Assembly (NCBI GenBank): GCA_947499725.1
Contig: CANMPK010000002.1
Span: 372,001 to 436,000, forward strand
Source of the DNA: an uncultured Paracoccaceae bacterium
Lineage (GTDB): Bacteria > Pseudomonadota > Alphaproteobacteria > Rhodobacterales > Rhodobacteraceae
Reading direction: 5' to 3'
Length of the DNA stretch: 64,000 nt
The translations under genes were made by a program, and so were the position numbers. Positions 50,626 through 63,953 of this stretch are shown in pieces; the stretch's first letter is position 1; every line of letters begins with the position of its first letter. The notes beneath the pieces were generated by a model. It searched no databases. It was not told the DNA's origin and saw only the letters and a program-made list of their open reading frames with translations.

Positions 50626-52704
<2,079 letters not shown>

Positions 52705-52806: not shown

Positions 52807-54309
52807 TTAACCACCAAACTGGTCACGCAGCAGATTTTTCTGGACCTTGCCCATCGTATTGCGGGGCAGTTCGGCCATCACTTCATAACGGCGCGGGTGT
52901 TTGAAACGCGCGAGCTTGTCGTTCACCACGGCGGCCAAGGCGTCGGCCTCTGTGGTTGTGCCGGCTTCTGGGACGATGGCGGCAATGATGGCTTCGCCAA
53001 AATCCGCATCGTGGATACCGAAGACAGCGGATTCTAGGACGCCGTCGATGTCATTCAGAACGTCTTCGATTTCTTTGGGGTACACATTGTAGCCGCCGGT
53101 GATGATCAGGTCTTTGGCGCGGCCTACGATAGAAACGTAGCCGTCCTCGCTGATTTGGCCCAGATCGCCGGTGATGAAGAAGCCGTTCTCGCGCAGTTCT
53201 TCGGCGGTTTTTTCTGGCATTTGCCAATAGCCTTGGAAGACGTTTGGCCCGCGCACTTCGATCATGCCGACCTCGCCTTGGGCCAGCTCTGCGCCGGTCT
53301 CTGGGTTGGTCAGGCGGACTTCGACGCCGGGCAGCGGGTGGCCGACTGTGCCCGGGCGACGCTCGCCGTCAAAGGGGTTGGAGGTGTTCATATTGGTTTC
53401 TGTCATGCCGTAGCGTTCCAGAATGTAGTGGCCGGTGCGGGCGGTAAATGCCTCGTGGGTTTCAGCCAACAAAGGCGCGCTGCCAGACACGAAGAGGCGC
53501 ATGTTTTGCACGAGGTCTTTGGTGAGACCTTCTTCGCCCAGAAGGCGGGTGTAGAAGGTGGGCACGCCCATCAGCATGGTGGCGGAGGGGATGGCATCCA
53601 AGATCGCATCGGTTTTGAAGGCGGCCATGAAATGCACGCAAGCGCCGGTGCGGATGGAGGTGTTCATCGCCACGAACAGGCCGTGGGTGTGGAAGATCGG
53701 CAGGGCGTGGATCAGCGTGTCGGCGTCTGTGATCTGCCAGAGATCAATCAGCGACAGGGTGTTGGACAGCAGGTTGTCATGGCTGAGCATCGCGCCCTTA
53801 GAGCGGCCTGTGGTGCCGGATGTATAAAGCAGCGCGGCCAGATCATCGGCGGCGCGATCTACGGTTTCAAAGCTGTCTGGTTGGGCGGCCAGATCCTCCG
53901 TCAGCGAGCCGGAGCCATCGGCGTTCAACGTGAGTAACGTTGCGTTATTGTCGGTAGCCAAGTCTGCCAGCGTGTCGGCAGAGCGGCCATCGCAGACGAT
54001 GATCTTTGGTGCGGCGTCACCGACGAAGTAGGCGACCTCGTCTTTTTTGTAGGCTGTGTTCAGCGGCAGAAAGACCCCGCCCGCTTGAACGGTGGCAATA
54101 TAGAGCGCGACCATTTCGACGGTTTTCGGGGCTTGCACCACTACGCGGTCGCCTGCGCCCACACCGTTTTGCACCAAGATATGGGCCAGTTTTGCAGCGG
54201 TTTTGATGAAATCCGCATAGCTGATGTCGTCTGCGCCATCTTGTTTGAGGAAGCAGTTCGTATTGTCTGCGTGATGGGCGATGAGATTGTCGTAAAGATG
54301 GTTGGCCAC
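52807..54309 (-). CDS. matB: Malonyl-CoA synthetase (MatB-type acyl-CoA ligase)
   Basis: An AMP-forming ligase activating malonate to malonyl-CoA, 500 residues. The AMP/ATP loop is LLYTSGTTGRSKGAMLSH; other adenylate motifs are ERYGMTETNM, GFFITGDLGQI and the C-terminal hinge and Lys in PRNTMGKVQKNLLR. KDLIITGGYNVYPKEIEDVL fits the MatB/ACSF3 family. Malonate specificity is inferred chiefly from the coupling with malonyl-CoA decarboxylase, one base overlap upstream, which turns the product into acetyl-CoA. Confidence 0.9.
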   Translation of the reverse strand: MANHLYDNLIAHHADNTNCFLKQDGADDISYADFIKTAAKLAHILVQNGVGAGDRVVVQAPKTVEMVALYIATVQAGGVFLPLNTAYKKDEVAYFVGDAAPKIIVCDGRSADTLADLATDNNATLLTLNADGSGSLTEDLAAQPDSFETVDRAADDLAALLYTSGTTGRSKGAMLSHDNLLSNTLSLIDLWQITDADTLIHALPIFHTHGLFVAMNTSIRTGACVHFMAAFKTDAILDAIPSATMLMGVPTFYTRLLGEEGLTKDLVQNMRLFVSGSAPLLAETHEAFTARTGHYILERYGMTETNMNTSNPFDGERRPGTVGHPLPGVEVRLTNPETGAELAQGEVGMIEVRGPNVFQGYWQMPEKTAEELRENGFFITGDLGQISEDGYVSIVGRAKDLIITGGYNVYPKEIEDVLNDIDGVLESAVFGIHDADFGEAIIAAIVPEAGTTTEADALAAVVNDKLARFKHPRRYEVMAELPRNTMGKVQKNLLRDQFGG

Positions 54310-55598
54310 TACACAGGTGTCCTTTGTTTCTTGGATGGTTTGGTCTCAGGCGGACGTTTGAAGGACGGGGCCAAGCAGACCTCGCCATTTTGTACGAACC
54401 GTTCGTGGTTTTGTTCGATCAGGTCAAGATCGTAGTGATAGTTCACCATGGCGCCGCTGGATTGGCCTTTGCCGTTTTCGCTGGTGTCGGCCTCGGCGTG
54501 GACCGCGTAGATTTGCGCGCCGTTGCCGAGGTGGAACCGGGCGACGGGATCATACGGCGTGCCGCGGCCCGATTTGGCGGTGGTCAGATACTCCGCTGCG
54601 GCGTCTTGCACCTCTTCCGGAGAGGCGGCGCCGTTGAGGATGGCTTTGGTTTCATCTGTGTCCTGTTCGGCCAGCCAAGCGTTGAGCTTTGGAATGGGCG
54701 AGAGGGTCACGAAGGTGTCGAGGTCAGGCAGTTCTTGACGCAGCTCGTCGACCACTTGTTTGATCAAGAGGTTGCCAAAGCTGATGCCTTTCAGGCCCTG
54801 CTGACAGTTGGAGATGGAATAGAAGACCGCGACTTTGGTGTCATGGGCTTCGCGGAGCTCTCGATCATCGGCCAATACCCGTTGGATGGAATTTGGCACG
54901 GTCATGGTGAGGGCGACCTCGACGAAGATCAGCGGCTCATCCGGCATGGTGGGGTGGAAATAGGCAAAGCAGCGGCGATCAGAGGGGTAGAGCCTGCGGC
55001 GCAGGTCGTCCCAGTCGCCGATTTCATGCACGGCTTCGTATTCCACTATCTTTTCCAGAATGCTGGCAGGGGTTTCCCAACTGATTTGACGCAGCACCAG
55101 AAAGCCACGGTTGAACCAGCTGCGCAGCAGGTGTTGGAAATCCATATCCAAGCGGCGCAGGTCTGGGTTGGCGCGCAGGGCTTTCAGCAGATCGGTGCGC
55201 ATTTTCACCAACGCGGGGGTGGCCCCCGGAGGTTGGTTGAGGCGGCGCAAAAGTTCCTGACGGCGTGGCTCGGCACTGGCGGCGACGCGGCGGTAGTCTT
55301 TCAGGTCATGGCTTTCGCTATAGGCCTGTGTGGCTGCTTGCAGGCCTGCGACGTCGATTTCCAGCGCGTCGTTCATGAAGCGGAAGAACTCTAGCTTGTC
55401 GCTGTCTTCAAGCTGGGCGTAGCGTTTCAGGATCGCCTTGGCGAGGTGAATGCCCGAGACTTCGCCTTCGGCATCCAGCAAGGCCATACACATGTCTTGC
55501 AGGGATCGCTCATCATCTGAGGCGCTGCTGCTGCGGCGACGCTCGAACAGGGTGGTGAGCATGTCTCCCAGAAAACTGCGTTGTGACATCATAGACAT
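54309..55598 (-). CDS. Malonyl-CoA decarboxylase
   Basis: Converts malonyl-CoA to acetyl-CoA and CO2; MLYCD family, about 429 residues. Landmarks are LRRLYPSDRRCFAYFHPTMP, LIFVEVALT, the segment VFYSISNCQQGLKGISFGNLL with the catalytic Ser/His-bearing core, and FVTLSPIPKLNAWL. The start is one of three ATGs at 55598, 55592 or 55589; AGGA favours 55592. It lies between the YciI-like gene (2 bases) and matB (1-base overlap), a clear operon for malonate use. Confidence 0.93.
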   Translation of the reverse strand: MSMMSQRSFLGDMLTTLFERRRSSSASDDERSLQDMCMALLDAEGEVSGIHLAKAILKRYAQLEDSDKLEFFRFMNDALEIDVAGLQAATQAYSESHDLKDYRRVAASAEPRRQELLRRLNQPPGATPALVKMRTDLLKALRANPDLRRLDMDFQHLLRSWFNRGFLVLRQISWETPASILEKIVEYEAVHEIGDWDDLRRRLYPSDRRCFAYFHPTMPDEPLIFVEVALTMTVPNSIQRVLADDRELREAHDTKVAVFYSISNCQQGLKGISFGNLLIKQVVDELRQELPDLDTFVTLSPIPKLNAWLAEQDTDETKAILNGAASPEEVQDAAAEYLTTAKSGRGTPYDPVARFHLGNGAQIYAVHAEADTSENGKGQSSGAMVNYHYDLDLIEQNHERFVQNGEVCLAPSFKRPPETKPSKKQRTPV

Positions 55599-55599
55599 C

Positions 55600-55986
55600 C
55601 TAGCTGAGGCTCACAGATTGGCCGGAGAGTTTCACGTTAAGCTGCACAGAGCCTTCGTTGATCATCCAGCGGCGCAAGACATATGTACGCGCGCCAGAGA
55701 TATGCATCGGATCCGCGGCGGCCAGCGCTTGGGCGGCTTCGAAGCTTTCGGCGCGGTACACGATCATGCCCATGCCTTCCATCATCTCACCTGATTCGTC
55801 GGACATTGGACCGGCAAAGACGAGGTTTTGGGCCGCTTCTAGTTCGGCTTGATAGGCCAAATGCGCGGGCAGGTTTTCTTTGACCGCAGCAGGGTCTCCG
55901 GCGGGCGTAGACTGAGCAATATATAGCTCTAGCGCCAATGCGCCGCGTGATTTTGCTTCGGCTTTGTAGTCATTCCAGCGTGGCAT
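55600..55986 (-). CDS. YciI-like protein
   Basis: A 128-residue protein of the YciI/EthD-like ferredoxin-fold group. LELYIAQSTPAGDPAAVKEN, LEAAQNLVFAGPMSDE and FEAAQALAAADPMHISGART match the YCII family, in which a His/Asp pair is thought to be catalytic (here DPMH). Family members act in aromatic pathways as lactone isomerases or dehalogenase-like enzymes. The ATG at 55986 has GGAG eight bases upstream. First gene of the operon with mcd and matB, divergent from the hydrolase/TRAP/dioxygenase operon. Confidence 0.82.
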   Translation of the reverse strand: MPRWNDYKAEAKSRGALALELYIAQSTPAGDPAAVKENLPAHLAYQAELEAAQNLVFAGPMSDESGEMMEGMGMIVYRAESFEAAQALAAADPMHISGARTYVLRRWMINEGSVQLNVKLSGQSVSLS

Positions 55987-56014
55987 TGAGAGGTCTCCAT
56001 TCCGCAAATTCAAG

Positions 56015-56026
56015 AAAATCGATTTT
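56015..56026. promoter_or_regulatory. ATCGAT palindrome in the divergent promoter region
   Basis: AAAATCGATTTT, a perfect 12-base palindrome, 29 bases upstream of yciI-like and 58 upstream of the FAH-type gene. Similar sites occur twice in the GntR/dctP intergenic region at 62.7-62.9 kb, so this is a candidate operator of the GntR regulator. Confidence 0.55.
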
Positions 56027-56083
56027 ATTTGACTTAGGGTCTTTTTATCGTCAAAACTGAGTCCAATCAATATGGAGGATTCG

Positions 56084-56968
56084 ATGCGTTTTATTGTGGG
56101 AACCGTAGACGGCACGCAGAGCGTGTTCGCGGTAACTGGCGATCGCGCTGTTAATTTGAGCGCTGCTCATCCTGAGGTCGGCTCTGATCTGAGTGGCATC
56201 GTGGGCAACCCTGATCTGCTGTCTAAACTGGGCGAGATCAGCGCGGATGCTGCGACGGTTGCTGTGGCTGACATTACACCTGCACTGCCGATTGAAGCGC
56301 CGGGCACGATTATCTGCCTTGGCTTGAACTACGTCGAGCACATCAAAGAAGGTGGCTATGACATTCCGGATTATCCGGCGTTGTTCATGCGTGGCAAAAG
56401 CTCGATCATGGCGGCTGGTGCGCCGATGGTGCGCCCAACTTGTTCTGAGCGTTTAGACTATGAAGCCGAGCTGATGCTGATCATTGGCAAAGGCGGTCGT
56501 CACATTTCTGAAGCGGATGCTTTGGATCATGTGTTTGGCTATACCGTGTTTAACGATGGCTCTGTGCGCGATTACCAGCGCAAGACGCACCAGTGGACAC
56601 CAGGTAAGAACTTTGACGACACCGGCGCGATTGGTCCGTTTGTTGTGACGCCAGATGAGGTGCCTGAGGGTGCGGCTGGTTTGAAGATCGAAAGCCGTGT
56701 GGGCGATGAGATTCTGCAATCGTCCAACACTGGCAATATGATCTGGTCTGTTGCGCAGACGATTGCGATTATTTCAGAGTACACAACGCTGAAGCCGGGT
56801 GATCACATCGCGATGGGCACGCCTCCGGGTGTGGGTCATGCGAAGAAGCCGAACCCACGTTGGTTGGTGCCGGGTGAAGTCGTGGACATCGAGATCGAAG
56901 GCATTGGCATTTGCTCTAGCCCGATTGTCGATGAAGCTGCGGTTTCCGGTCAGGCGGCGGCTGAATAA
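56084..56968 (+). CDS. Fumarylacetoacetate hydrolase (FAH) family enzyme
   Basis: A 294-residue FAH-superfamily enzyme, Mg-dependent hydrolase or decarboxylase of oxo-acids. ICLGLNYVEHIKEGGYDIPD, YPALFMRGKSSIMAAGAPM, the metal ligands in LDYEAELMLIIGKGG and FNDGSVRDYQ, and KNFDDTGAIGPFVV are typical. GGAGG five bases ahead of the ATG at 56084 decides the start over the ATG at 56072. It opens the operon with the RutE-like, OsmC, TRAP and dioxygenase genes. Likely step: hydrolysis of a ring-cleavage product. Confidence 0.9.
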   Translation: MRFIVGTVDGTQSVFAVTGDRAVNLSAAHPEVGSDLSGIVGNPDLLSKLGEISADAATVAVADITPALPIEAPGTIICLGLNYVEHIKEGGYDIPDYPALFMRGKSSIMAAGAPMVRPTCSERLDYEAELMLIIGKGGRHISEADALDHVFGYTVFNDGSVRDYQRKTHQWTPGKNFDDTGAIGPFVVTPDEVPEGAAGLKIESRVGDEILQSSNTGNMIWSVAQTIAIISEYTTLKPGDHIAMGTPPGVGHAKKPNPRWLVPGEVVDIEIEGIGICSSPIVDEAAVSGQAAAE

Positions 56969-57630
56969 TGGTGGCGGCTCCAGAGAATTTGGACGATTTG
57001 CGCGCACAGGCTCAAGAGGCTGTGCGGGCGCTTCGCTCTCGCAAGACAAAGCTCGATGATGACTCGATTGATCTGATCCTGCGCGATGCGCGTTCGCATT
57101 ACGCTTGGAAAGATGAACCGGTCAGCGACGAGATCCTGCACACGCTTTACGACATCACGATCAATGGCCCGACCAGCATGAACACATGTCCGGCGCGGTT
57201 CATTTTTGTGCGCAGCGAGGCGGGCAAAGATCGTTTGGCGAAGTCGTTGAAGGCCAAGAACATCGATAAGATGCGCGCGGCGCCCGTTTGCGCGATTATC
57301 GCTTGGGATCCGAAATATTGGGAGCGTCTGGATTTCCTGTTCCCGCATGAGGATCGTAAGCCGATGTTTGCTGGGAATGAGGCTTACGCCCATGACACAG
57401 CCTATCGCAATTCGACCCTGCAAGGGGCCTATTTCATGATCGCAGCGCGTGCGCTGGGCTTGGATGTGGGCGCGATGTCTGGCTTTTCCAATGAAATCGT
57501 CGATCAAGAATTTTTCGCGGAAAATGGATGGAAATCCAATTTCTTGTGTAACCTAGGCTATGCCGATGAGTCGGCACTGTTTCAGAAACTGCCTCGGTTC
57601 GCATTCGAGGACATCTGCACAATTCTCTGA
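56968..57630 (+). CDS. Nitroreductase family, RutE-type (malonic semialdehyde reductase-like)
   Basis: A 220-residue flavoprotein of the nitroreductase superfamily, closest in pattern to RutE (HadB/RutE branch): RDARSHYAWKDEPVSDEIL, INGPTSMNTCPARFIFVRSE, AIIAWDPKYWERLDFLFPHE, and LGLDVGAMSGFSNEIVDQEF. RutE reduces malonic semialdehyde to 3-hydroxypropionate in uracil breakdown, yet no other rut gene is here. It overlaps the FAH gene by one base. In this operon it may reduce an aldehyde or unsaturated intermediate; inference. Confidence 0.85.
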   Translation: MVAAPENLDDLRAQAQEAVRALRSRKTKLDDDSIDLILRDARSHYAWKDEPVSDEILHTLYDITINGPTSMNTCPARFIFVRSEAGKDRLAKSLKAKNIDKMRAAPVCAIIAWDPKYWERLDFLFPHEDRKPMFAGNEAYAHDTAYRNSTLQGAYFMIAARALGLDVGAMSGFSNEIVDQEFFAENGWKSNFLCNLGYADESALFQKLPRFAFEDICTIL

Positions 57631-57644
57631 CCATAGGAGAGTGA

Positions 57645-58100
57645 ATGACAGTAAAGATGAAGAATACGGTTCGGTTGCGGGCAAAGGGAGATTGCCCCAG
57701 CCATTCCTTGTCGAATATCGCGGTGCGGGATCTTTCCTTTGCCATCGATGAACCTACCGAGCGGGGCGGAACCAATCTCGGCCCCACTCCGACTGATACC
57801 GCATTGGCGGCCCTGATCGGCTGCACCAATGTGATCGGTCATAAATGTGCCCATCAGCTTGATATTGAGATCGGCACATTAACGATCAACGCGTCCTGTG
57901 AATTCGACAGGCGCGGCGTGACCCTGACAGAAGAAATCGACGTTCCTTTTGTTTCTGTCACGCTTGATATCGTTGCCAGCGGCCCAGCGTCAGAGGAGCA
58001 ACTGCAAGCAGTTGGACGTGAAACCGCTAAATTCTGTCCGCTTTCAAAACTGTTTGAAGCGGCGGGAACGACAGTTGTCACAAACTGGAGAACGGCCTGA
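57645..58100 (+). CDS. OsmC family protein
   Basis: A 151-residue OsmC-fold protein. The two redox cysteines are conserved in ALIGCTNVIGHKCAHQL and TAKFCPLSKLFE. OsmC/Ohr proteins reduce peroxides; other members bind or modify catabolic intermediates. GGAGAG lies before the ATG. Placement inside a catabolic operon suggests handling of reactive intermediates; inference. Confidence 0.88.
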   Translation: MTVKMKNTVRLRAKGDCPSHSLSNIAVRDLSFAIDEPTERGGTNLGPTPTDTALAALIGCTNVIGHKCAHQLDIEIGTLTINASCEFDRRGVTLTEEIDVPFVSVTLDIVASGPASEEQLQAVGRETAKFCPLSKLFEAAGTTVVTNWRTA

Positions 58101-58147
58101 AAAGGCCACAATAGGCTCTGTTTAGAGCCGATTTTGGGAGGAAAACT

Positions 58148-59236
58148 ATGATTACGAAATGGACACGTCGTACTTTGATGGGCGCGCTGTTGGCAGGTGC
58201 AACTGCCATGCCTGCTCTCGCGACCGAAACCATCAAAGCTGTTGTCATCGACGGCTATCCAGCGCGTGCGCTTTGGGTGAAAGAATTCACTGGATTCTTT
58301 ATTCCTGAAGTCGACAAGCGTCTGGCTGAGACCGGCAATTACAAGATGGACTGGCAAGAAAGCTATGGCGGCACAATCGTGAAGCCAAAGGGCGTTCTGG
58401 AAGGTGTGAAGCTGGGTTTGGGTGATATTGGTATCGTCACAACTATCTTCCACAACTCTAAACTGCCAAGCCAAGCGCTGTCTGCTGTAACGCCTTTCGT
58501 GGCGGCGGATGCCCGTGCGGTGGCGCAAGCGGTGGATGAGATCGCCAAAGAATACCCAGCGATGCAAGCGGAATTCGCCGAGCAGAACCAAGTGTATCTG
58601 GCGACGGGCGTTGTGCTGGACACGTATCAGGTCTTCTCGAAATCCGAGATCGGGTCTTTGTCTGATCTGGAAGGGTCCAAAGTGGCCGGTGCTGGTATGA
58701 ACCTGCGCTATCTGGAAGGTATTGAAGGCGCGGCGGGTGTGCGTGGTGGTCTGACGGACTTCTACAACATGCTGCAAACCGGTCTGGTGGATCACGCGAT
58801 GCTGTGGCCAGAAGCGGCGAAGACCTTCAAGATTGCAGAAGTGGCGCCTTACATGCTGCGTGCGGATCTGGGTGCTGTGAATTCCAAGACGATCACAGTG
58901 AACAAAGACTACTGGGAAGGTCTGCCTGATGAGGTGAAGACGGTTCTGGGTGAAGTTGCTGTTGCCTATCGTGACCACGTTGCGGGTATCGCAATGGATC
59001 GTGCACAAGAAAGCCGTGATGCCTTTGTGGCTGCCGGTGGCACAATCGTGGAACTGTCTGCTGAAGAGCGTGCCTCTTGGGCGGCGGCGATGCCAAACCT
59101 TGCACAGGAATGGGCCGCAAGCCTGAACGATGCAGGTCAGCCAGGCAGCGATATGCTGAATGCCTATATGGGCAAGCTGTCCGACGCAGGGTTTACCCCA
59201 GTGCGTGACTGGGCTGCTGAATCCGCAACGAACTAA
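58148..59236 (+). CDS. TRAP transporter solute-binding protein (DctP family)
   Basis: A periplasmic substrate-binding protein, 362 residues, with a signal peptide containing RRTLMGALLAGATAMPALA; the twin arginine may mean Tat export. DctP features are VLEGVKLGLGDIGIVTT, FSKSEIGSLSDLEGSKVAG and LRYLEGIEGAAGVRGGLTDF, with the conserved Arg that binds a carboxylate group probably in NLRYLEG. Strong GGAGG upstream. Permease genes follow directly, forming a complete TRAP system for an organic acid. Confidence 0.92.
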   Translation: MITKWTRRTLMGALLAGATAMPALATETIKAVVIDGYPARALWVKEFTGFFIPEVDKRLAETGNYKMDWQESYGGTIVKPKGVLEGVKLGLGDIGIVTTIFHNSKLPSQALSAVTPFVAADARAVAQAVDEIAKEYPAMQAEFAEQNQVYLATGVVLDTYQVFSKSEIGSLSDLEGSKVAGAGMNLRYLEGIEGAAGVRGGLTDFYNMLQTGLVDHAMLWPEAAKTFKIAEVAPYMLRADLGAVNSKTITVNKDYWEGLPDEVKTVLGEVAVAYRDHVAGIAMDRAQESRDAFVAAGGTIVELSAEERASWAAAMPNLAQEWAASLNDAGQPGSDMLNAYMGKLSDAGFTPVRDWAAESATN

Positions 59237-59250
59237 GCGGAGCGGCGTAC

Positions 59251-59760
59251 GTGAGAGACGTTATCGTCAAAATCGCCGGCGGAGTGGCTATGGCAGCCAA
59301 TGCCGCCGGCACCTTTGTGGTCATCGCGCTGATTGCCGTGGTGAACTACGATATCATTGCCCGGGGATTGTTTAACAAACCCTTCCTGGGTGCCGTTGAA
59401 GTGGTGCAATTCTCGATGGTGTTGATTGTGTTTCTGCAGCTTCCCGACGTTGTGCGGGTGGGGCGTTTGACGCGATCTGACGGCTTGCTGGGCATGTTGT
59501 CGATGAAGGCACCGGCCAAGGGGCTGTTCCTACGTCGGTTGATTGATGTGATCAGCGCTGTGTTCATGCTTTTGGTCGCCTATGCGATCTGGCCTGAATT
59601 CGTCGAGATGTGGGAGAGCCGAGACTTTTTTGGCGTGCCGGGTGTGTTCACAGCGCCTTGGTGGCCGGTCAAGCTGGTGATCTTTCTAAGCGCCTGCCTC
59701 TGTGCGCTTCACTTCCTTTTACATGTCATCACGCGACGCGATGACAAAGCGCAACGATAG
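59251..59760 (+). CDS. TRAP transporter small permease (DctQ)
   Basis: A 169-residue protein with four membrane helices (AANAAGTFVVIALIAVVNYD, AVEVVQFSMVLIVFLQLP, LIDVISAVFMLLVAYAIW, PVKLVIFLSACLCALHFL) and the GxxEVVQ-type pattern of DctQ. It starts at GTG 59251. It pairs with the large permease 11 bases downstream. Confidence 0.93.
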   Translation: MRDVIVKIAGGVAMAANAAGTFVVIALIAVVNYDIIARGLFNKPFLGAVEVVQFSMVLIVFLQLPDVVRVGRLTRSDGLLGMLSMKAPAKGLFLRRLIDVISAVFMLLVAYAIWPEFVEMWESRDFFGVPGVFTAPWWPVKLVIFLSACLCALHFLLHVITRRDDKAQR

Positions 59761-59771
59761 GATAACGGCAT

Positions 59772-61079
59772 ATGACTCCTGTTGAAATTGGCCTGATCTC
59801 GATCATTGCGATTATCGTTCTGATCTATATGGGCGTATATATTCCGATTGCGCTGGGTGTGGTCAGCTTTCTGGCGATCTACATCATTCGCGACAATGTG
59901 GACTTGTCCTTTGCGCTGCTGAAAATCGCCATTGGCGACAGTGCGATGGAATATACCTTTGCGACCATTCCGCTGTTTACCTTTATGGGGCTGATCGTCT
60001 CGAAGGCCGGATTGGGCGCGGATATTTACGGCGTGATGAACCAAGGGTTCCGCCGGATTACGGGCGGCATTGGCATGGCGACCGTTGGCGCCAATGCGGT
60101 GTTCGCGGCGGTGACGGGCTCGTCGATTGCCTCGGCGTCTGTGTTTACCAAGATGTCGGTGCCAGAGATGATGCGCCACAAATACAACCCGCGCTTTGCG
60201 GTGGGCGTTGTGGCCGGTAGCTCGGTTCTGGGCATGATCATTCCGCCCTCGGCGATGTTGATCATTTACTCTTTCGTGGCAGAGCAATCCGTGGGCGAGA
60301 TGTTCTTGGCCGGTGTTGTGCCGGGCCTGATGCTGGCCGTGGCTTATGTGGCGGCGATCTGGTTCATGGGCCGCTTTACCCCCAAGTTTGTGGGCGGCGA
60401 AAAGATCGAAGACGAAGACCTGATGGGTTGGGGCGAGATCATCGCCAAGACTCTGCCGATTGTCTTGCTGATCGTGGTGGTTCTGGGCGGGATTTACACC
60501 GGTTGGACAACCCCTGTTGAAGCGGGTGCCGCGGGGTCCTTGTTGGGGATTATCATCGCGGCGGTGCGTCGTCGGATCACGTTGAAGACCTTTTGGGAAA
60601 CCGTGATTGAAACCGGCCATATCACAGCGGCGATTTTGTTCCTGATCACAGCGGCATCGATGTATGCGCGTATGCTGGGGATTGCGGGCTTGCCGAATGC
60701 GCTGTCGGATATTCTGGCGGCCAATCAGCTAAGCTTTTTCTGGATCATGGTGATCTATGTGATCCTGATGCTGTTCTTGGGCACGATCTTGGACACGGCC
60801 TCGATCATTCTGATTGTCGTGCCGCTGTTCCTGCCGCTGATCGAACCGATGGGCCTGAGCCTTGTGTGGTTTGGCATCGTCAGTGTTGTGGCCGCTGAAA
60901 TCGGGCTGCTGACGCCGCCTTTGGGGCTGAGTTGTTTTGTCATCAAAGCGACGCTTGATGATGATCGCATTGCCTTGAAGGATGTGTTTCTTGGCGCGCT
61001 GCCCTTTGCCTTTGTTATGCTGATTGTTCTGGTCTTCTTGATCCGGTTCCCAGCCTTGAGTCTTGCCATTTTAAACTAA
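59772..61079 (+). CDS. TRAP transporter large permease (DctM)
   Basis: A 435-residue, twelve-helix sodium-driven permease of the DctM family. PLFTFMGLIVSKAGLGADIY, ANAVFAAVTGSSIASASVF, SVLGMIIPPSAMLIIYSF, GAAGSLLGIIIAAV and the C-terminal AAEIGLLTPPLGLSCFVIKA are diagnostic. Together with the small permease and binding protein it imports an acid substrate into the cytoplasm. Confidence 0.95.
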   Translation: MTPVEIGLISIIAIIVLIYMGVYIPIALGVVSFLAIYIIRDNVDLSFALLKIAIGDSAMEYTFATIPLFTFMGLIVSKAGLGADIYGVMNQGFRRITGGIGMATVGANAVFAAVTGSSIASASVFTKMSVPEMMRHKYNPRFAVGVVAGSSVLGMIIPPSAMLIIYSFVAEQSVGEMFLAGVVPGLMLAVAYVAAIWFMGRFTPKFVGGEKIEDEDLMGWGEIIAKTLPIVLLIVVVLGGIYTGWTTPVEAGAAGSLLGIIIAAVRRRITLKTFWETVIETGHITAAILFLITAASMYARMLGIAGLPNALSDILAANQLSFFWIMVIYVILMLFLGTILDTASIILIVVPLFLPLIEPMGLSLVWFGIVSVVAAEIGLLTPPLGLSCFVIKATLDDDRIALKDVFLGALPFAFVMLIVLVFLIRFPALSLAILN

Positions 61080-61091
61080 AGGAAGTCGTCT

Positions 61092-61964
61092 ATGCGTGAC
61101 GTCACCAAAGACAATATTACCGATGTGTTCATGAGCTATATGGGCGAGGATATGAACCCGCGCCTGCGTGAAGTTCTGTCGAGCCTTGTGAAACATCTGC
61201 ATGCTTTTGCGCGGGAAACCAACCTGACCCACGAGGAATGGAACACCGGCATCGCTTTCCTTGAAAAGGCGGGCGAGATTTCGGATGCAGAGCGGCATGA
61301 GTTTGTGTTGTTGTCTGACGTGTTGGGCCTGTCTTCCTTGGTGGATATGCTGCACAATCGGCCTGAAGGCACCTCGTCTTCGGTGCTCGGGCCGTTCCAT
61401 ATCACGGGATCGCCAGATTTGGCGGTTGGCGCGGATATGCGCAAAGACTTTGACGATACGGTGTTGTTGGTGGAAGGGATCGTAAAAGACCCTGATGGCA
61501 ATCCCATTCCAGGGGCGACCTTGGATATTTGGCAGACGGCGCCGAATGGTTTGTATTCCAGCCAAGACCCTGACCAAGACACCTATTCCTTTCACGGTTT
61601 GCAAAAGGTCGGGGACGATGGGCGCTATGCGTTCACCTCGGTGCGGCCTGTGGAATATACGGTGCCGTCTGATGGGCCGGTTGGGGATATTCTGCGTGCC
61701 TGTGGGCGGCATCCTTGGCGTCCGTCGCATTTGCACTTCATTGCAGAGGCTGAGGGGTTCCGGCCGCTTGTGACAGAGGTCTTCCCAGAGGATGACAAGT
61801 ATCTGGACAATGACACCGTGTTTGGCGTGCGCAAAGACTTGGTGATGACCTACGTGCCGATGCCAGCAGGCAGCTTCCCTGAGGAAGGTTATGAGCTGTC
61901 AGGCAAGGTGCCGGGGGATTATCTGAAGGTGAATTTTGATCTGACTTTGGTGCCAAAGGACTAA
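61092..61964 (+). CDS. Intradiol ring-cleavage dioxygenase (hydroxyquinol/catechol 1,2-dioxygenase-like)
   Basis: A 290-residue non-haem Fe(III) dioxygenase. The N-terminal dimerisation helix domain (VFMSYMGEDMNPRLREVLSS) is followed by the catalytic beta domain from about 95. The iron ligands are visible as Tyr in TAPNGLYSSQDP, Tyr in SVRPVEYTVPSDG and two His in HPWRPSHLHFIAEAEG. The size and the N-terminal domain fit hydroxyquinol 1,2-dioxygenases. No maleylacetate reductase is in the window, so the pathway may differ. Last gene of the operon, with AGGA ahead of the ATG. Confidence 0.92.
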   Translation: MRDVTKDNITDVFMSYMGEDMNPRLREVLSSLVKHLHAFARETNLTHEEWNTGIAFLEKAGEISDAERHEFVLLSDVLGLSSLVDMLHNRPEGTSSSVLGPFHITGSPDLAVGADMRKDFDDTVLLVEGIVKDPDGNPIPGATLDIWQTAPNGLYSSQDPDQDTYSFHGLQKVGDDGRYAFTSVRPVEYTVPSDGPVGDILRACGRHPWRPSHLHFIAEAEGFRPLVTEVFPEDDKYLDNDTVFGVRKDLVMTYVPMPAGSFPEEGYELSGKVPGDYLKVNFDLTLVPKD

Positions 61965-61995
61965 GGTTAGCATCCTTGAACATCAGGCGGCGCGT

Positions 61996-62676
61996 TTAAC
62001 CGAGCGCGCCGTCTCCTAAAAGACCCGATAGGAATTCGCCGGTCAGGCGGTAATGGGTCAACAGGCGCTCGCTGGCTTCTTGGGTGTTGCCCGCGATGGC
62101 CGCTTCCAAAATTCCAGAATGTTCTTCGCCCACGTCGCGCTTTTGATAGTTCAGCGCGCTGCCCGCCAAATAGCGGTAGCGGATGTTCAGATCATAAAGC
62201 TGCGAGCAGAATTTCATTAGGATCGGCGATTGCGCATTGGCCAGCAGGGCCATGTGGAAGGCTTTGTGTACCTCTTCGAAGGCTTCAGAGCCTTCGGTTT
62301 TCGCGCGACGCAAACGGTGATGGGCCAGAACAACATCTTCTTCCCAGTCTTGCGTGCGATTGGCGATGCTTTCGCGCAGGGCCAGATCTTCGAGCGTACA
62401 GCGCAGGGTCAGAATTTCGTTGAAGTTCTCGGCGCTGATTTCGGCGGTGCGAAAGCCGCGTTGATCCAGACGTTCCACAAGGTTGTCTGAGGTCAAAAGG
62501 CTGAGCGCTTCGCGGATTGGGGAGGCGCCGGTATCAAGGCGTTGGCGTAGCCCGTCGATCTTGAGCTTTTCACCTGGCTTCAGAACACCGGTGACAATCA
62601 TTTTGCGCAACGTGTTATAGGCGCGTTGGGTCGCAGACCCGTCACCTGTTGGCATGGCTTGTCCGGAAATGTTCAT
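61996..62676 (-). CDS. GntR family regulator with FCD domain
   Basis: A 226-residue regulator. The winged helix reads ATQRAYNTLRKMIVTGVLKP, KIDGLRQRLDTGASPIREAL, LLTSDNLVERLDQRGFRTA. The FCD domain (about 95-220) has the metal-binding Asp/His pattern LTLRCTLEDLALRE, VHKAFHMALLANAQ and EEHSGILEAAIAGN. FCD regulators usually repress catabolic operons until an organic acid binds. The ATG at 62676 fits. Convergent with the dioxygenase and divergent from a second dctP gene; ATCGAT palindromes in between and at 56.0 kb are its likely operators. Confidence 0.92.
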   Translation of the reverse strand: MNISGQAMPTGDGSATQRAYNTLRKMIVTGVLKPGEKLKIDGLRQRLDTGASPIREALSLLTSDNLVERLDQRGFRTAEISAENFNEILTLRCTLEDLALRESIANRTQDWEEDVVLAHHRLRRAKTEGSEAFEEVHKAFHMALLANAQSPILMKFCSQLYDLNIRYRYLAGSALNYQKRDVGEEHSGILEAAIAGNTQEASERLLTHYRLTGEFLSGLLGDGALG

Positions 62677-62706
62677 CGGCCCCCCCTGGCTATTTGTCGA
62701 TAGCGA

Positions 62707-62718
62707 ATTATCGATTTT
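62707..62718. promoter_or_regulatory. ATCGAT-type operator proximal to gntR
   Basis: ATTATCGATTTT, the exact reverse complement of AAAATCGATAAT at 62845. Read toward gntR it offers GATAAT as a -10 box 31 bases before the start, so autoregulation is possible. Confidence 0.5.
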
Positions 62719-62827
62719 CACGACCCGTATTTCGGCGCGCTTTTTCGCACAGTTATATGGCGTTTCCAATGGGTGCGCGCGCGGTTTCGGTGAAAACCCT
62801 CTCCTTGCTAATAATTTTGCCGATATG

Positions 62828-62856
62828 TTGACAGAAATCAATGAAAAATCGATAAT
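62828..62856 (+). promoter_or_regulatory. Sigma-70 promoter with overlapping ATCGAT operator for dctP
   Basis: TTGACA (62828-62833), a 17-base spacer and GATAAT (62851-62856) make a near-consensus housekeeping promoter. The operator AAAATCGATAAT (62845-62856) covers the -10 box, an ideal position for repression. The dctP start lies 48 bases downstream. In the 227-base gap nothing else is evident. Confidence 0.7.
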
Positions 62857-62903
62857 ATTGAAAGGTGGGCAGATTCTGCGCACCAACCTTGGGAGGAAAT
62901 ACG

Positions 62904-63953
62904 TTGAAAAAAGTGAAAAACTTGATCAGCGGTGCATTGGCTTGTGCGGTACTTGGTACGGCTGGTGTACCTGCGTTTGCAGACACCGTAGACGGTCCGT
63001 CCGTCTTCTGGAAAATCTCGATGTGGGGTAACCCACGGGCTTTGTCCGCTGGGATGGAAGCCATGGCCGAAAAAGTGCGCGAGGACACTGGCGGCAAATT
63101 TAACATTAAAATTTTCTACGGCGCGCAGTTGTCCAGCTCGCGCGAGAACCTTGATGGTCTGAAGCTGAATGCCTTTGAAGGCGCTGCGATTTGTAACTTC
63201 TATCATCCAGGTAAGAACCCAGCATGGATGGTGTTCTCTTTGCCGTTCCTGCCTTTGGGTGATCCACAAGTCGACAAATACGTACGCACCAAAATGTTCG
63301 AGCATCCGGCGATTGTGGCCGATATGGAGAAGTGGAACGCGGTTCCATACGCCTCCGGACTGTTGCCGCAGTATGAGGTGCTGGGCAAAGGCACGCCGCC
63401 ACAGAACCTGTCTGATTGGGCAGGTTTGCGTGTCCGCGCGGGCGGTGGCCTTGGCAGCGCGATGGAGAAATTGGGCGCTGTAAAGCAGACCCTTCCAGCG
63501 GGCGAAACATCGACAGCCTTCCAACGCGGTGCGTTGGATGCGGCGGCCTTCCCGTACACCTATGCGCATGTGTCGTTCAAAATCAGCGAAGAGGCGGATT
63601 GGTTCACATCCAACCTTGCGCCGGGCACATCTGAATGTGGCTGGGTCTTTAACAAGACAGCCCATGACGCCCTACCAGATCAGTACAAAGAGCTGCTGGT
63701 GAAATACCGCGATTTGGTTCTGGATACAGAGCTAGAAGCCTATGCGGCAGCGGATGCGAAGAACTTGCCAGAGTTTGAAGCCAGCATGACCAAGATCACC
63801 TATTCTGACGAGCAACTCGCAGAGTTCCAGAAGGTGGCCGGTCAGCCGGTTTGGGATGATTGGATCGCTGCGAACAAAGATACATTTGACGCGCAGGGCG
63901 TGTTTGATGCGGTCTTTGAATATGCCGAGGAAGCCAAGGCGAAAATGAACTAA
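62904..63953 (+). CDS. TRAP transporter solute-binding protein (second DctP)
   Basis: A 349-residue periplasmic binding protein with signal peptide LISGALACAVLGTAGVPAFA. DctP features: IKIFYGAQLSSSRENLDGLK, YEVLGKGTPPQNLSDWAGLR with the following VRAGGG in which Arg can bind the carboxylate, and FQRGALDAAAFPYTYAHVSF. It starts at TTG 62904 with GGAGGA six bases upstream. It differs clearly from the binding protein at 58.1 kb. A strong terminator follows before any permease gene, so permeases either lie beyond the window or those at 59.3-61.1 kb serve both. Confidence 0.92.
   Translation: MKKVKNLISGALACAVLGTAGVPAFADTVDGPSVFWKISMWGNPRALSAGMEAMAEKVREDTGGKFNIKIFYGAQLSSSRENLDGLKLNAFEGAAICNFYHPGKNPAWMVFSLPFLPLGDPQVDKYVRTKMFEHPAIVADMEKWNAVPYASGLLPQYEVLGKGTPPQNLSDWAGLRVRAGGGLGSAMEKLGAVKQTLPAGETSTAFQRGALDAAAFPYTYAHVSFKISEEADWFTSNLAPGTSECGWVFNKTAHDALPDQYKELLVKYRDLVLDTELEAYAAADAKNLPEFEASMTKITYSDEQLAEFQKVAGQPVWDDWIAANKDTFDAQGVFDAVFEYAEEAKAKMN

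Follow-up and report, generated by a model that had tools for sequence, protein, structure and literature searches.

A conserved gene cluster of the Rhodobacteraceae predicted to link intradiol ring cleavage to pyruvate and malonate

The window considered here, a stretch of 64,000 nucleotides from an uncultured Paracoccaceae bacterium (GenBank assembly GCA_947499725.1, contig CANMPK010000002.1; G000:C2:372001-436000, part of a 3.15 Mb genome), contains two divergent operons, yciI-mcd-matB on the minus strand and fah-rutE-osmC-dctPQM-dox on the plus strand. Comparison with related genomes reveals that these operons are co-conserved around a shared operator, that the FAH-family gene fah is exchanged in other strains for an unrelated gene, c11, and that maleylacetate reductase is absent from the loci; from this background we infer the ring substrate, every reaction, the transport ligand and the pairing of regulator with operator. 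The genes may form one regulon in which a 1,2,3,5-tetrahydroxybenzene-type ring is opened to malonylpyruvate, this is split into pyruvate and malonate, and malonate is converted to acetyl-CoA. This pathway is preferred here but put forward tentatively, being judged slightly more probably wrong than right.

Conservation of the cluster

With the dioxygenase alone as bait (ortholog threshold E <= 1e-90), an ortholog was found in 54 of 394 sampled family genomes. Comparison of 55 loci, which represent 53 of these 54 genomes (the window's own, the 54th, was left out) and the same-genus genomes G001 and G007, reveals conservation of dctQ1 and dctM1 (52 loci each), rutE, dctP1 and gntR (49 each) and yciI (45), followed by osmC (36), mcd (33), fah (32), matB (19) and c11 (14). 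The genes rutE, dctP1 and dctM1 occur jointly in 47 of the 55. Among the remaining eight, four (G390, G174, G233 and G303) carry further cluster genes on another contig, L065 is missing dctQ together with most of dctM, and L091 (G282) is damaged, which leaves only L045 and L046 as stand-alone dioxygenases. The first-pass annotation, made from the window alone, had described the two divergent operons; open reading frames and profile matches agree with its genes, coordinates and families, and the operons proved to be conserved together, with a common operator.

Among the best 80 of 354 named relatives, some contigs of which also belong to the 55-locus set, dctM1 is present in 71 and rutE in 67, and the cluster was also found in Roseibium/Labrenzia, Pelagibius, Thioalkalivibrio sp. 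HK1 and Granulosicoccaceae. A dioxygenase of 86% identity is encoded both in the same-genus genome G007 and in Cognatishimia sp. DT_16. Plasmid pDY25-C of Pacificitalea manganoxidans carries an annotated cluster (CBW24_RS17195 to RS17240), with no osmC between rutE and dctP.

The shared operator

Between yciI (55600-55986, minus strand; PF03795) and fah (56084-56968, plus strand; PF01557, 216 bits) lies a conserved operator/promoter element, GAAAATCGATTTTATTTGACTT (56014-56035, plus strand). The operator, AAATATCGATTTTATTTGAC, was found in 36 of 36 divergent yciI/fah (or rutE) intergenic regions resolved by gene calls; it has the form TCGA-N8-GAC and the consensus AAATATCGATTTTATTTGACA. Since the motif was built from the same 36 intergenic regions, a genome-wide search with its 16-base core (at most one mismatch, 59 genomes, reversed pattern as control) served as an independent check. 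This yielded 49 sites in 44 of the 59 genomes, and no site for the reversed pattern. Of the 15 genomes without a core match, seven show a more diverged site in the intergenic scan, and G021 and G028 hold lone dioxygenases.

In the bacterium's own genome the core, again with at most one mismatch, occurs at two places only, the yciI/fah divergence (56018-56033) and C2:440479, outside the window, 75 bases upstream of a TAXI-type TRAP operon ending in a cupin gene. A gene for a GntR/FCD protein (61996-62676, minus strand; PF00392 and PF07729) follows dox, and its product is presumed to read the operator. The existence of the regulon is well supported by comparative genomics.

No site scoring at least 13 was found in L140, L126, L158, L207 or L208, or in the reductase-type clusters L201, L202 and L204, so these are tied to the cluster by gene content only. 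Two further matches were not counted as regulon members: an operator hit located away from the cluster (G022:C10:39647), which by eye is adjoined by sugar-transport-type genes, and a weak operator-like match near c11 in L210 (score 18.7).

Ring cleavage and the absence of maleylacetate reductase

The dioxygenase gene, dox (61092-61964, plus strand), encodes a protein with both domains of the intradiol hydroxyquinol-dioxygenase type (PF04444 and PF00775). Two tyrosines and two histidines, Y155, Y189, H213 and H215, are invariant in 16 aligned orthologs and align with 1tmx; we take these to be the iron ligands. The best solved matches are the hydroxyquinol 1,2-dioxygenases 3n9t (PnpC), 8r2x and 1tmx, which makes a polyhydroxybenzene the likely substrate.

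In the hydroxyquinol route the ring-cleavage product is handled by maleylacetate reductase. The first-pass annotation had seen no such enzyme near the cluster, and none was found in the whole of the bacterium's own genome (E <= 1e-40). The same holds for 59 of 66 dioxygenase genomes, its own included, the 66 being 56 family genomes and 10 chosen among the named loci; in the other seven the reductase is on a different contig from the cluster or over 1 Mb away from it. At an identity of at least 50% it is present in 0 of the 55 loci and 0 of the 80 named loci (some contigs are in both sets).

The dioxygenases themselves are also set apart. In a quick tree that gave long-branch warnings for other rows, a branch with a support of 96 parts 121 cluster-type rows from seven maleylacetate-reductase-linked rows. 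Of 134 cluster-dioxygenase matches with 280 residues or more, among which some genomes are represented twice, 131 have Y-[TEMKQ]-V-P from an Fe-ligand tyrosine onwards, whereas reductase-linked dioxygenases have Y-P-I-P there in 8/8 (two of these are the same gene); other, unlinked relatives vary. The residue pair following this tyrosine presumably lines the pocket, judging from the 1tmx structure. With no reductase in its genome and a dioxygenase outwith the reductase-linked group, the cluster does not belong to the hydroxyquinol-maleylacetate-3-oxoadipate type.

Exchange of fah and c11

The nearest solved proteins to the fah product are the HpaG isomerase/decarboxylase (1gtt) and L-2,4-diketo-3-deoxyrhamnonate hydrolase (8gsr). 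The FAH domain is accompanied by the motifs DYExEL (32/34 sequences), FNDxSxR (32/34) and WTPGKNFD (31/34), which presumably have a role in FAH, and the protein is proposed to be an acylpyruvate hydrolase. Such hydrolysis would be shared with the family members L-2,4-diketo-3-deoxyrhamnonate hydrolase and FAHD1 acylpyruvase (6fog); the fah protein is nevertheless far under the equivalog cut-off (192.6 of 500 bits), and a different acyl group is expected.

In 14 of the 55 loci, mostly adjoining the dioxygenase or the regulator gene, there is instead c11, which encodes an unannotated homocitrate-synthase-like protein of about 404 residues (DRE-TIM type) with an HMGL-like domain (PF00682). Cluster-type fah is absent from all 14. 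Among the 394 family genomes (fah, E <= 1e-90; c11, E <= 1e-120), 37 contain fah, 18 contain c11 and none contains both; restricted to the 54 dioxygenase genomes, the counts are 31 with fah, 17 with c11, 0 with both and six with neither (Fisher p 2e-9). Those six are the lone dioxygenases (singletons) of G021 and G028, the damaged G282, G190 and G333, where the genes are on short contigs, and G366, in which a piece of fah lies at a contig end. Six fah genomes fall outside the dioxygenase count: G301, G067 and G228 hold clusters with a broken or missing dioxygenase, and G133, G163 and G319 have fah in other contexts at 52-63% identity. In the 18th c11 genome, G022, a truncated dioxygenase adjoins c11. 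The pattern recurs in the best 80 of 354 named relatives, where c11 is rarer (61 with fah, five with c11, 0 with both, 14 without either). On plasmids, fah (E <= 1e-80) was found in Pacificitalea only, and c11 (E <= 1e-50) matched only three Nostoc records (35-36% identity), of which two carry the annotation nifV.

On the dioxygenase tree (n=136), a quick search with SH-aLRT support only, in which three c11 labels come from c11 elsewhere in the genome, the fah/c11 state changes at least 11 times, seven of these changes being forced by starred branches. That two unrelated C-C bond enzymes have replaced each other several times suggests a common intermediate for fah and c11, and the replacement of FAH by c11 in 17 of 54 dioxygenase genomes points to malonylpyruvate.

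None of the 25 listed NCBIfam matches of c11 reaches its cut-off, and the best solved match is the homocitrate synthase 6ktq. Like the homocitrate and isopropylmalate synthases, c11 combines PF00682 with the motifs LRDGEQ and HTHND (14/14). It differs in one stretch, where V-F-F-P-Y-D or a close variant (FFPYD or YFPYD), present in 14/14, replaces the R-F-S-A-E-D of homocitrate synthase. The equivalent residues are RFSAED in 2ztj, RFTAED in 6ktq and EFSCED in the isopropylmalate synthase 3rmj, so that c11 lacks the F-[ST]-[ACS]-E-D typical of both synthases. We take this stretch to be catalytic and its glutamate to belong to the acetyl-CoA-activating machinery; its replacement makes an ordinary condensing role for c11 doubtful, and a retro-Claisen role is possible.

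Malonate genes

Two enzymes of malonate assimilation are encoded on the minus strand, a malonyl-CoA synthetase by matB (52807-54309; NF005702, malonyl-CoA synthase, 770 bits against a cut-off of 558) and a malonyl-CoA decarboxylase by mcd (54309-55598; PF05292 and PF17408). Treating loci as independent, matB adjoins 18 of 32 fah loci versus 0 of 14 c11 loci (p 2e-4), in addition to one damaged locus with neither gene; mcd adjoins 18/32 and 9/14, respectively. In a whole-genome search of the 56 family dioxygenase genomes (E <= 1e-150), MatB had no match in five, namely the c11-type G081, G089 and G216, G190 with neither gene, and G366, which is 79% complete; none of the 31 fah-type dioxygenase genomes lacked a match. 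Mcd is present in 47/54 dioxygenase genomes versus 110/340 others (Fisher p 1.7e-14), a test that counts related genomes as independent, includes a fragment (G282) and is helped by adjacency itself.

In some genomes, for example G009, G105, G138 and G158, mcd and matB stand together away from the cluster. They are a variable attachment to a more constant core of dioxygenase, TRAP carrier and rutE. The first-pass annotation had counted them as full members of the regulon; they do adjoin the dioxygenase at many loci (matB at 19 and mcd at 33 of 55) but do not belong to its constant part. Malonate is likely to be the end of the route.

Oxidoreductase, YciI and carrier genes

The product of rutE (56968-57630, plus strand), an FMN nitroreductase-family oxidoreductase, passes the malonic semialdehyde reductase family model NF003768 (265 versus 152 bits); a search of the annotated cluster genes found no other rut genes among them. 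In L117 and L140 the fah-dox pair is not accompanied by rutE, which both genomes nevertheless encode at another site (77 and 79% identity). An argument from these pairs, that RutE is dispensable after ring opening, was dropped for this reason, which makes the pathway preferred here slightly less probable and the hydroxyquinol alternative slightly more so. Nine genomes have a dioxygenase away from the usual cluster; five of them contain rutE (E <= 1e-40), one at only 41% identity, and no match was found in G021, G028, G427 and G434. A reduction by RutE before ring opening is favoured as a guess; a step on malonic semialdehyde, in keeping with the first-pass annotation, is possible.

An optional osmC gene (57645-58100, plus strand; PF02566) precedes the TRAP carrier genes on the same strand, dctP for the solute-binding protein (58148-59236; PF03480), dctQ for the small permease (59251-59760; PF04290) and dctM for the large permease (59772-61079; TIGR00786, 303 versus 268 bits). 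DctP gives weak matches to various TRAP solute-binding proteins (best E 2e-14). For YciI no solved relative was found at E <= 0.1, and a function as a tautomerase or lactone-opening enzyme can be guessed at; TftG of the 2,4,5-T pathway, a YciI-type dehydrochlorinase, likewise precedes a hydroxyquinol dioxygenase. Intergenic gaps inside both operons range from -1 to 47 bases, with gene starts that differ from the longest open reading frame being the analyst's own choice.

Monooxygenase and feeding modules

An FAD phenol-hydroxylase-type monooxygenase gene is present in four fah-dox loci. The order in L140 is fah-dox-monooxygenase-LivK; L064 (G401) has yciI-gntR-monooxygenase and, following the dioxygenase gene, another FAD monooxygenase gene and one for a LivK-type carrier. 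In L118 the gene follows gntR, and in L152 it is the next gene after matB, truncated by the end of the retrieved sequence.

Groups of sulfatase, TAXI-TRAP, GST and/or FAD monooxygenase genes occur in L207 (G407:C31), L208 (G303:C17), L117, L046, L126 and L158, where some of them adjoin a fah-dox pair or a lone dox; the sulfatases were tested against Pfam in L207 and L117 and recognized by eye in the other loci. These groups suggest that the same ring cleavage is fed from aryl sulfates.

Proposed pathway and alternatives

In the pathway preferred here, the shared operator would control the regulon, presumably via the GntR/FCD protein, and DctPQM would import a small organic anion. The RutE-like flavoprotein could possibly reduce a quinone or similar precursor. 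The FAD monooxygenase of the four fah-dox loci speaks for such a ring: if enzymes of its kind usually turn resorcinol into hydroxyquinol, their chemistry applied to phloroglucinol (5-hydroxyresorcinol) would give 1,2,3,5-tetrahydroxybenzene. Cutting between two neighbouring hydroxyls, the dioxygenase would produce 2,4-dioxoadipate (malonylpyruvate, HOOC-CH2-CO-CH2-CO-COOH), an acylpyruvate that the FAH-family enzyme would hydrolyse to pyruvate and malonate; MatB would then form malonyl-CoA, and Mcd acetyl-CoA. With c11, thiolysis of malonylpyruvate by CoA could yield malonyl-CoA and pyruvate directly, in which case MatB would not be expected beside c11, as is found. Of the rings considered, only the tetrahydroxybenzene pattern would explain jointly why dioxygenase, FAH, MatB and Mcd are present and the reductase is missing, and a 1,2,3,5-tetrahydroxybenzene-type substrate is plausible on this product logic. 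In its favour, a metabolomic study of brown algae annotates, in the part available, a tetrahydroxybenzene, the isomer not being given, besides hydroxyquinol (PMC13412289). Ring opening, hydrolysis and malonate formation, the succession suggested in the first-pass annotation, is also the order that fits best, although that annotation gave the second dctP and matB-mcd a more central place than their distribution supports.

Several points weigh against this pathway. The ring substrate is derived from product logic, and each reaction is a prediction. TRAP carriers mostly move carboxylates or sulfonates, whereas free tetrahydroxybenzene is neutral. RutE, OsmC and YciI have no firm step in the route, and the presence of rutE elsewhere in the L117 and L140 genomes means that RutE may act after ring opening. 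HpaG, the best solved match of the FAH-family protein, is an isomerase/decarboxylase and no hydrolase. The family model matched by the cluster-linked monooxygenase is named 3-(3-hydroxyphenyl)propionate hydroxylase, and its relatives of 59-64% identity have intradiol dioxygenase and maleylacetate reductase genes no more than about 10 kb away (Phaeobacter, Paracoccus, Agrobacterium, Pseudomonas and Thioclava plasmids), a neighbourhood that suggests a resorcinol-type hydroxylase. Only three of 56 dioxygenase genomes have the monooxygenase at an identity of at least 60%, and two of these have it outside the cluster, so that most carriers must obtain the ring otherwise. The near-complete fah or c11 genomes G104, G359, G401 and G409 lack mcd; decarboxylation is thus not obligatory, and in genomes without mcd malonyl-CoA may go to fatty acids. 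Finally, 14 of the 17 c11 genomes hold MatB elsewhere (p 0.04), which reduces the whole-genome MatB contrast to a hint.

An alternative is a hydroxyquinol route with another end, in which maleylacetate is split by FAH or c11, or reduced by RutE to 3-oxoadipate, and the mat genes are passengers. Among solved proteins the dioxygenase matches hydroxyquinol dioxygenases best, the monooxygenase of four loci is 59-64% identical to those near maleylacetate reductase, and rutE is found in 49 of 55 loci as well as in the genomes of the L117 and L140 pairs. Against this, malonate is not a product of maleylacetate hydrolysis, whereas mcd is enriched (p 1.7e-14) and matB adjoins fah but not c11; moreover, the dioxygenases are a clade apart and differ in the residue pair that follows the Fe-ligand tyrosine, and rutE was not matched in the lone-dioxygenase genomes G021 and G028. 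Such a route appears unlikely. The pP11_c cluster of Phaeobacter gallaeciensis (L201), with an FAD monooxygenase, a hydroxyquinol-type dioxygenase and a maleylacetate reductase, illustrates the resorcinol/hydroxyquinol type, its assignment to resorcinol being itself a prediction. Clusters of this type share with the present one the dioxygenase family and, in the L140 and G401 variants, the monooxygenase family and a LivK-type ABC carrier; unlike them, the present cluster has FAH or c11 in place of maleylacetate reductase, a dioxygenase clade of its own and attached malonyl-CoA enzymes.

The TRAP carrier and the flavoprotein reductase would be accounted for by a substituted ring (tetrahydroxybenzoate, tetrahydroxytoluene or a dihydroxyquinone anion) giving a substituted malonate or another 2-oxo acid. 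The available part of the metabolomic study of brown algae also reports phloroglucinic acid (PMC13412289). No substituent-removing enzyme is recognized among the conserved cluster genes, and sequence cannot separate such a ring from an unsubstituted one; we consider it distinctly improbable.

Highly improbable is ordinary malonate uptake and use, with DctPQM importing malonate, the GntR protein sensing it and the dioxygenase and FAH being unrelated neighbours. The MatPQMAB/MatR malonate systems of rhizobia do comprise the same MatB, Mcd, TRAP carrier and GntR/FCD regulator. In the present loci, however, matB is beside the dioxygenase in only 19 of 55 while the carrier and rutE remain in about 49, and mcd and matB can stand together outside the cluster (G009, G105, G138, G158); the constant core is the aromatic-cleavage unit, and the malonate genes are its variable attachment.

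The tetrahydroxybenzene pathway preferred here has a counterpart in fungi, in which 1,2,3,5-tetrahydroxybenzene as a proposed ring-opening substrate is common to both. In the portions of the fungal reports available the ring opener is named a DUF3550 protein in one (PMC13094099) and a DUF3500 protein, with 5-hydroxydienelactone as the proposed product, in the other (PMC12388069), unlike the intradiol dioxygenase of the present cluster. Within the available parts of the open-licence papers listed, no account of the cluster was found under tetrahydroxybenzene, phloroglucinol/phlorotannin catabolism or malonate systems, only chemical synthesis under malonylpyruvate/dioxoadipate, and nothing on the cluster dioxygenase under the dioxygenase pocket.

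If correct, the pathway would be a bacterial ring cleavage ending in pyruvate and malonate instead of 3-oxoadipate, which would be new for bacteria, and would offer a genetic handle on marine bacterial use of algal phloroglucinol-type polyphenols; c11 would represent a new C-C cleaving activity in a family mostly known for C-C bond making. Thanks to the operator and the FAH/c11 exchange, both the regulon and the key intermediate are open to direct tests. A wider view, which is rather doubtful, would see here a bacterial tetrahydroxybenzene central pathway with an interchangeable hydrolase or CoA-using DRE-TIM lyase, through which marine bacteria would use algal polyphenols. Several peripheral modules would feed it, one combining a TRAP carrier and a flavoprotein reductase, another an ABC carrier and a monooxygenase, and a further one sulfatases and carriers of the TAXI-TRAP type.

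Variant and neighbouring loci

Several variants of the cluster were observed. In G301 (L244) the dioxygenase gene is, by eye, split by transposase-like genes; in G067 (L245) it is broken, and in G228 (L253) it is missing from the fetched stretch. L077 (G376) contains a second fah-dox pair, divergent from the main cluster, and each of the two sides has an operator of its own. In L213 (G235:C9) a second fah is divergent from mcd-matB with an operator between them, and there is no dioxygenase in the 19 kb fetched. A distant analogue, L097 (G013:C13), encodes dox (44% identity), yciI (40%), dctPQM (32-47%) and fah (41%), alongside which a flavodoxin-type reductase and a family III CoA-transferase were recognized by eye; it may act on another ring.

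An old-yellow-enzyme/dienoyl-CoA-reductase-like gene beside matB (50626-52653) was considered as a member of the system and rejected, being present in 0 of 55 loci at an identity of at least 40%. On the other side, a second dctP (62904-63953, plus strand; PF03480) follows the regulator gene. The first-pass annotation had included it in the system; the gene is indeed there, but it is the first of a separate, optional dctPQM-HbpS operon that adjoins just 3 of 55 dioxygenase loci. Its dctQ2, dctM2 and HbpS-like gene continue beyond the window end (L002:4016-6445), after which comes a divergent cupin gene. The TAXI-TRAP/cupin operon that has the second operator site (L002:8475-11986; G000:C2:440475-443986) lies 4.5 kb beyond the window end, and relatives of its TAXI and/or cupin genes adjoin the cluster again in L061, L074, L082, L086, L145 and L155.

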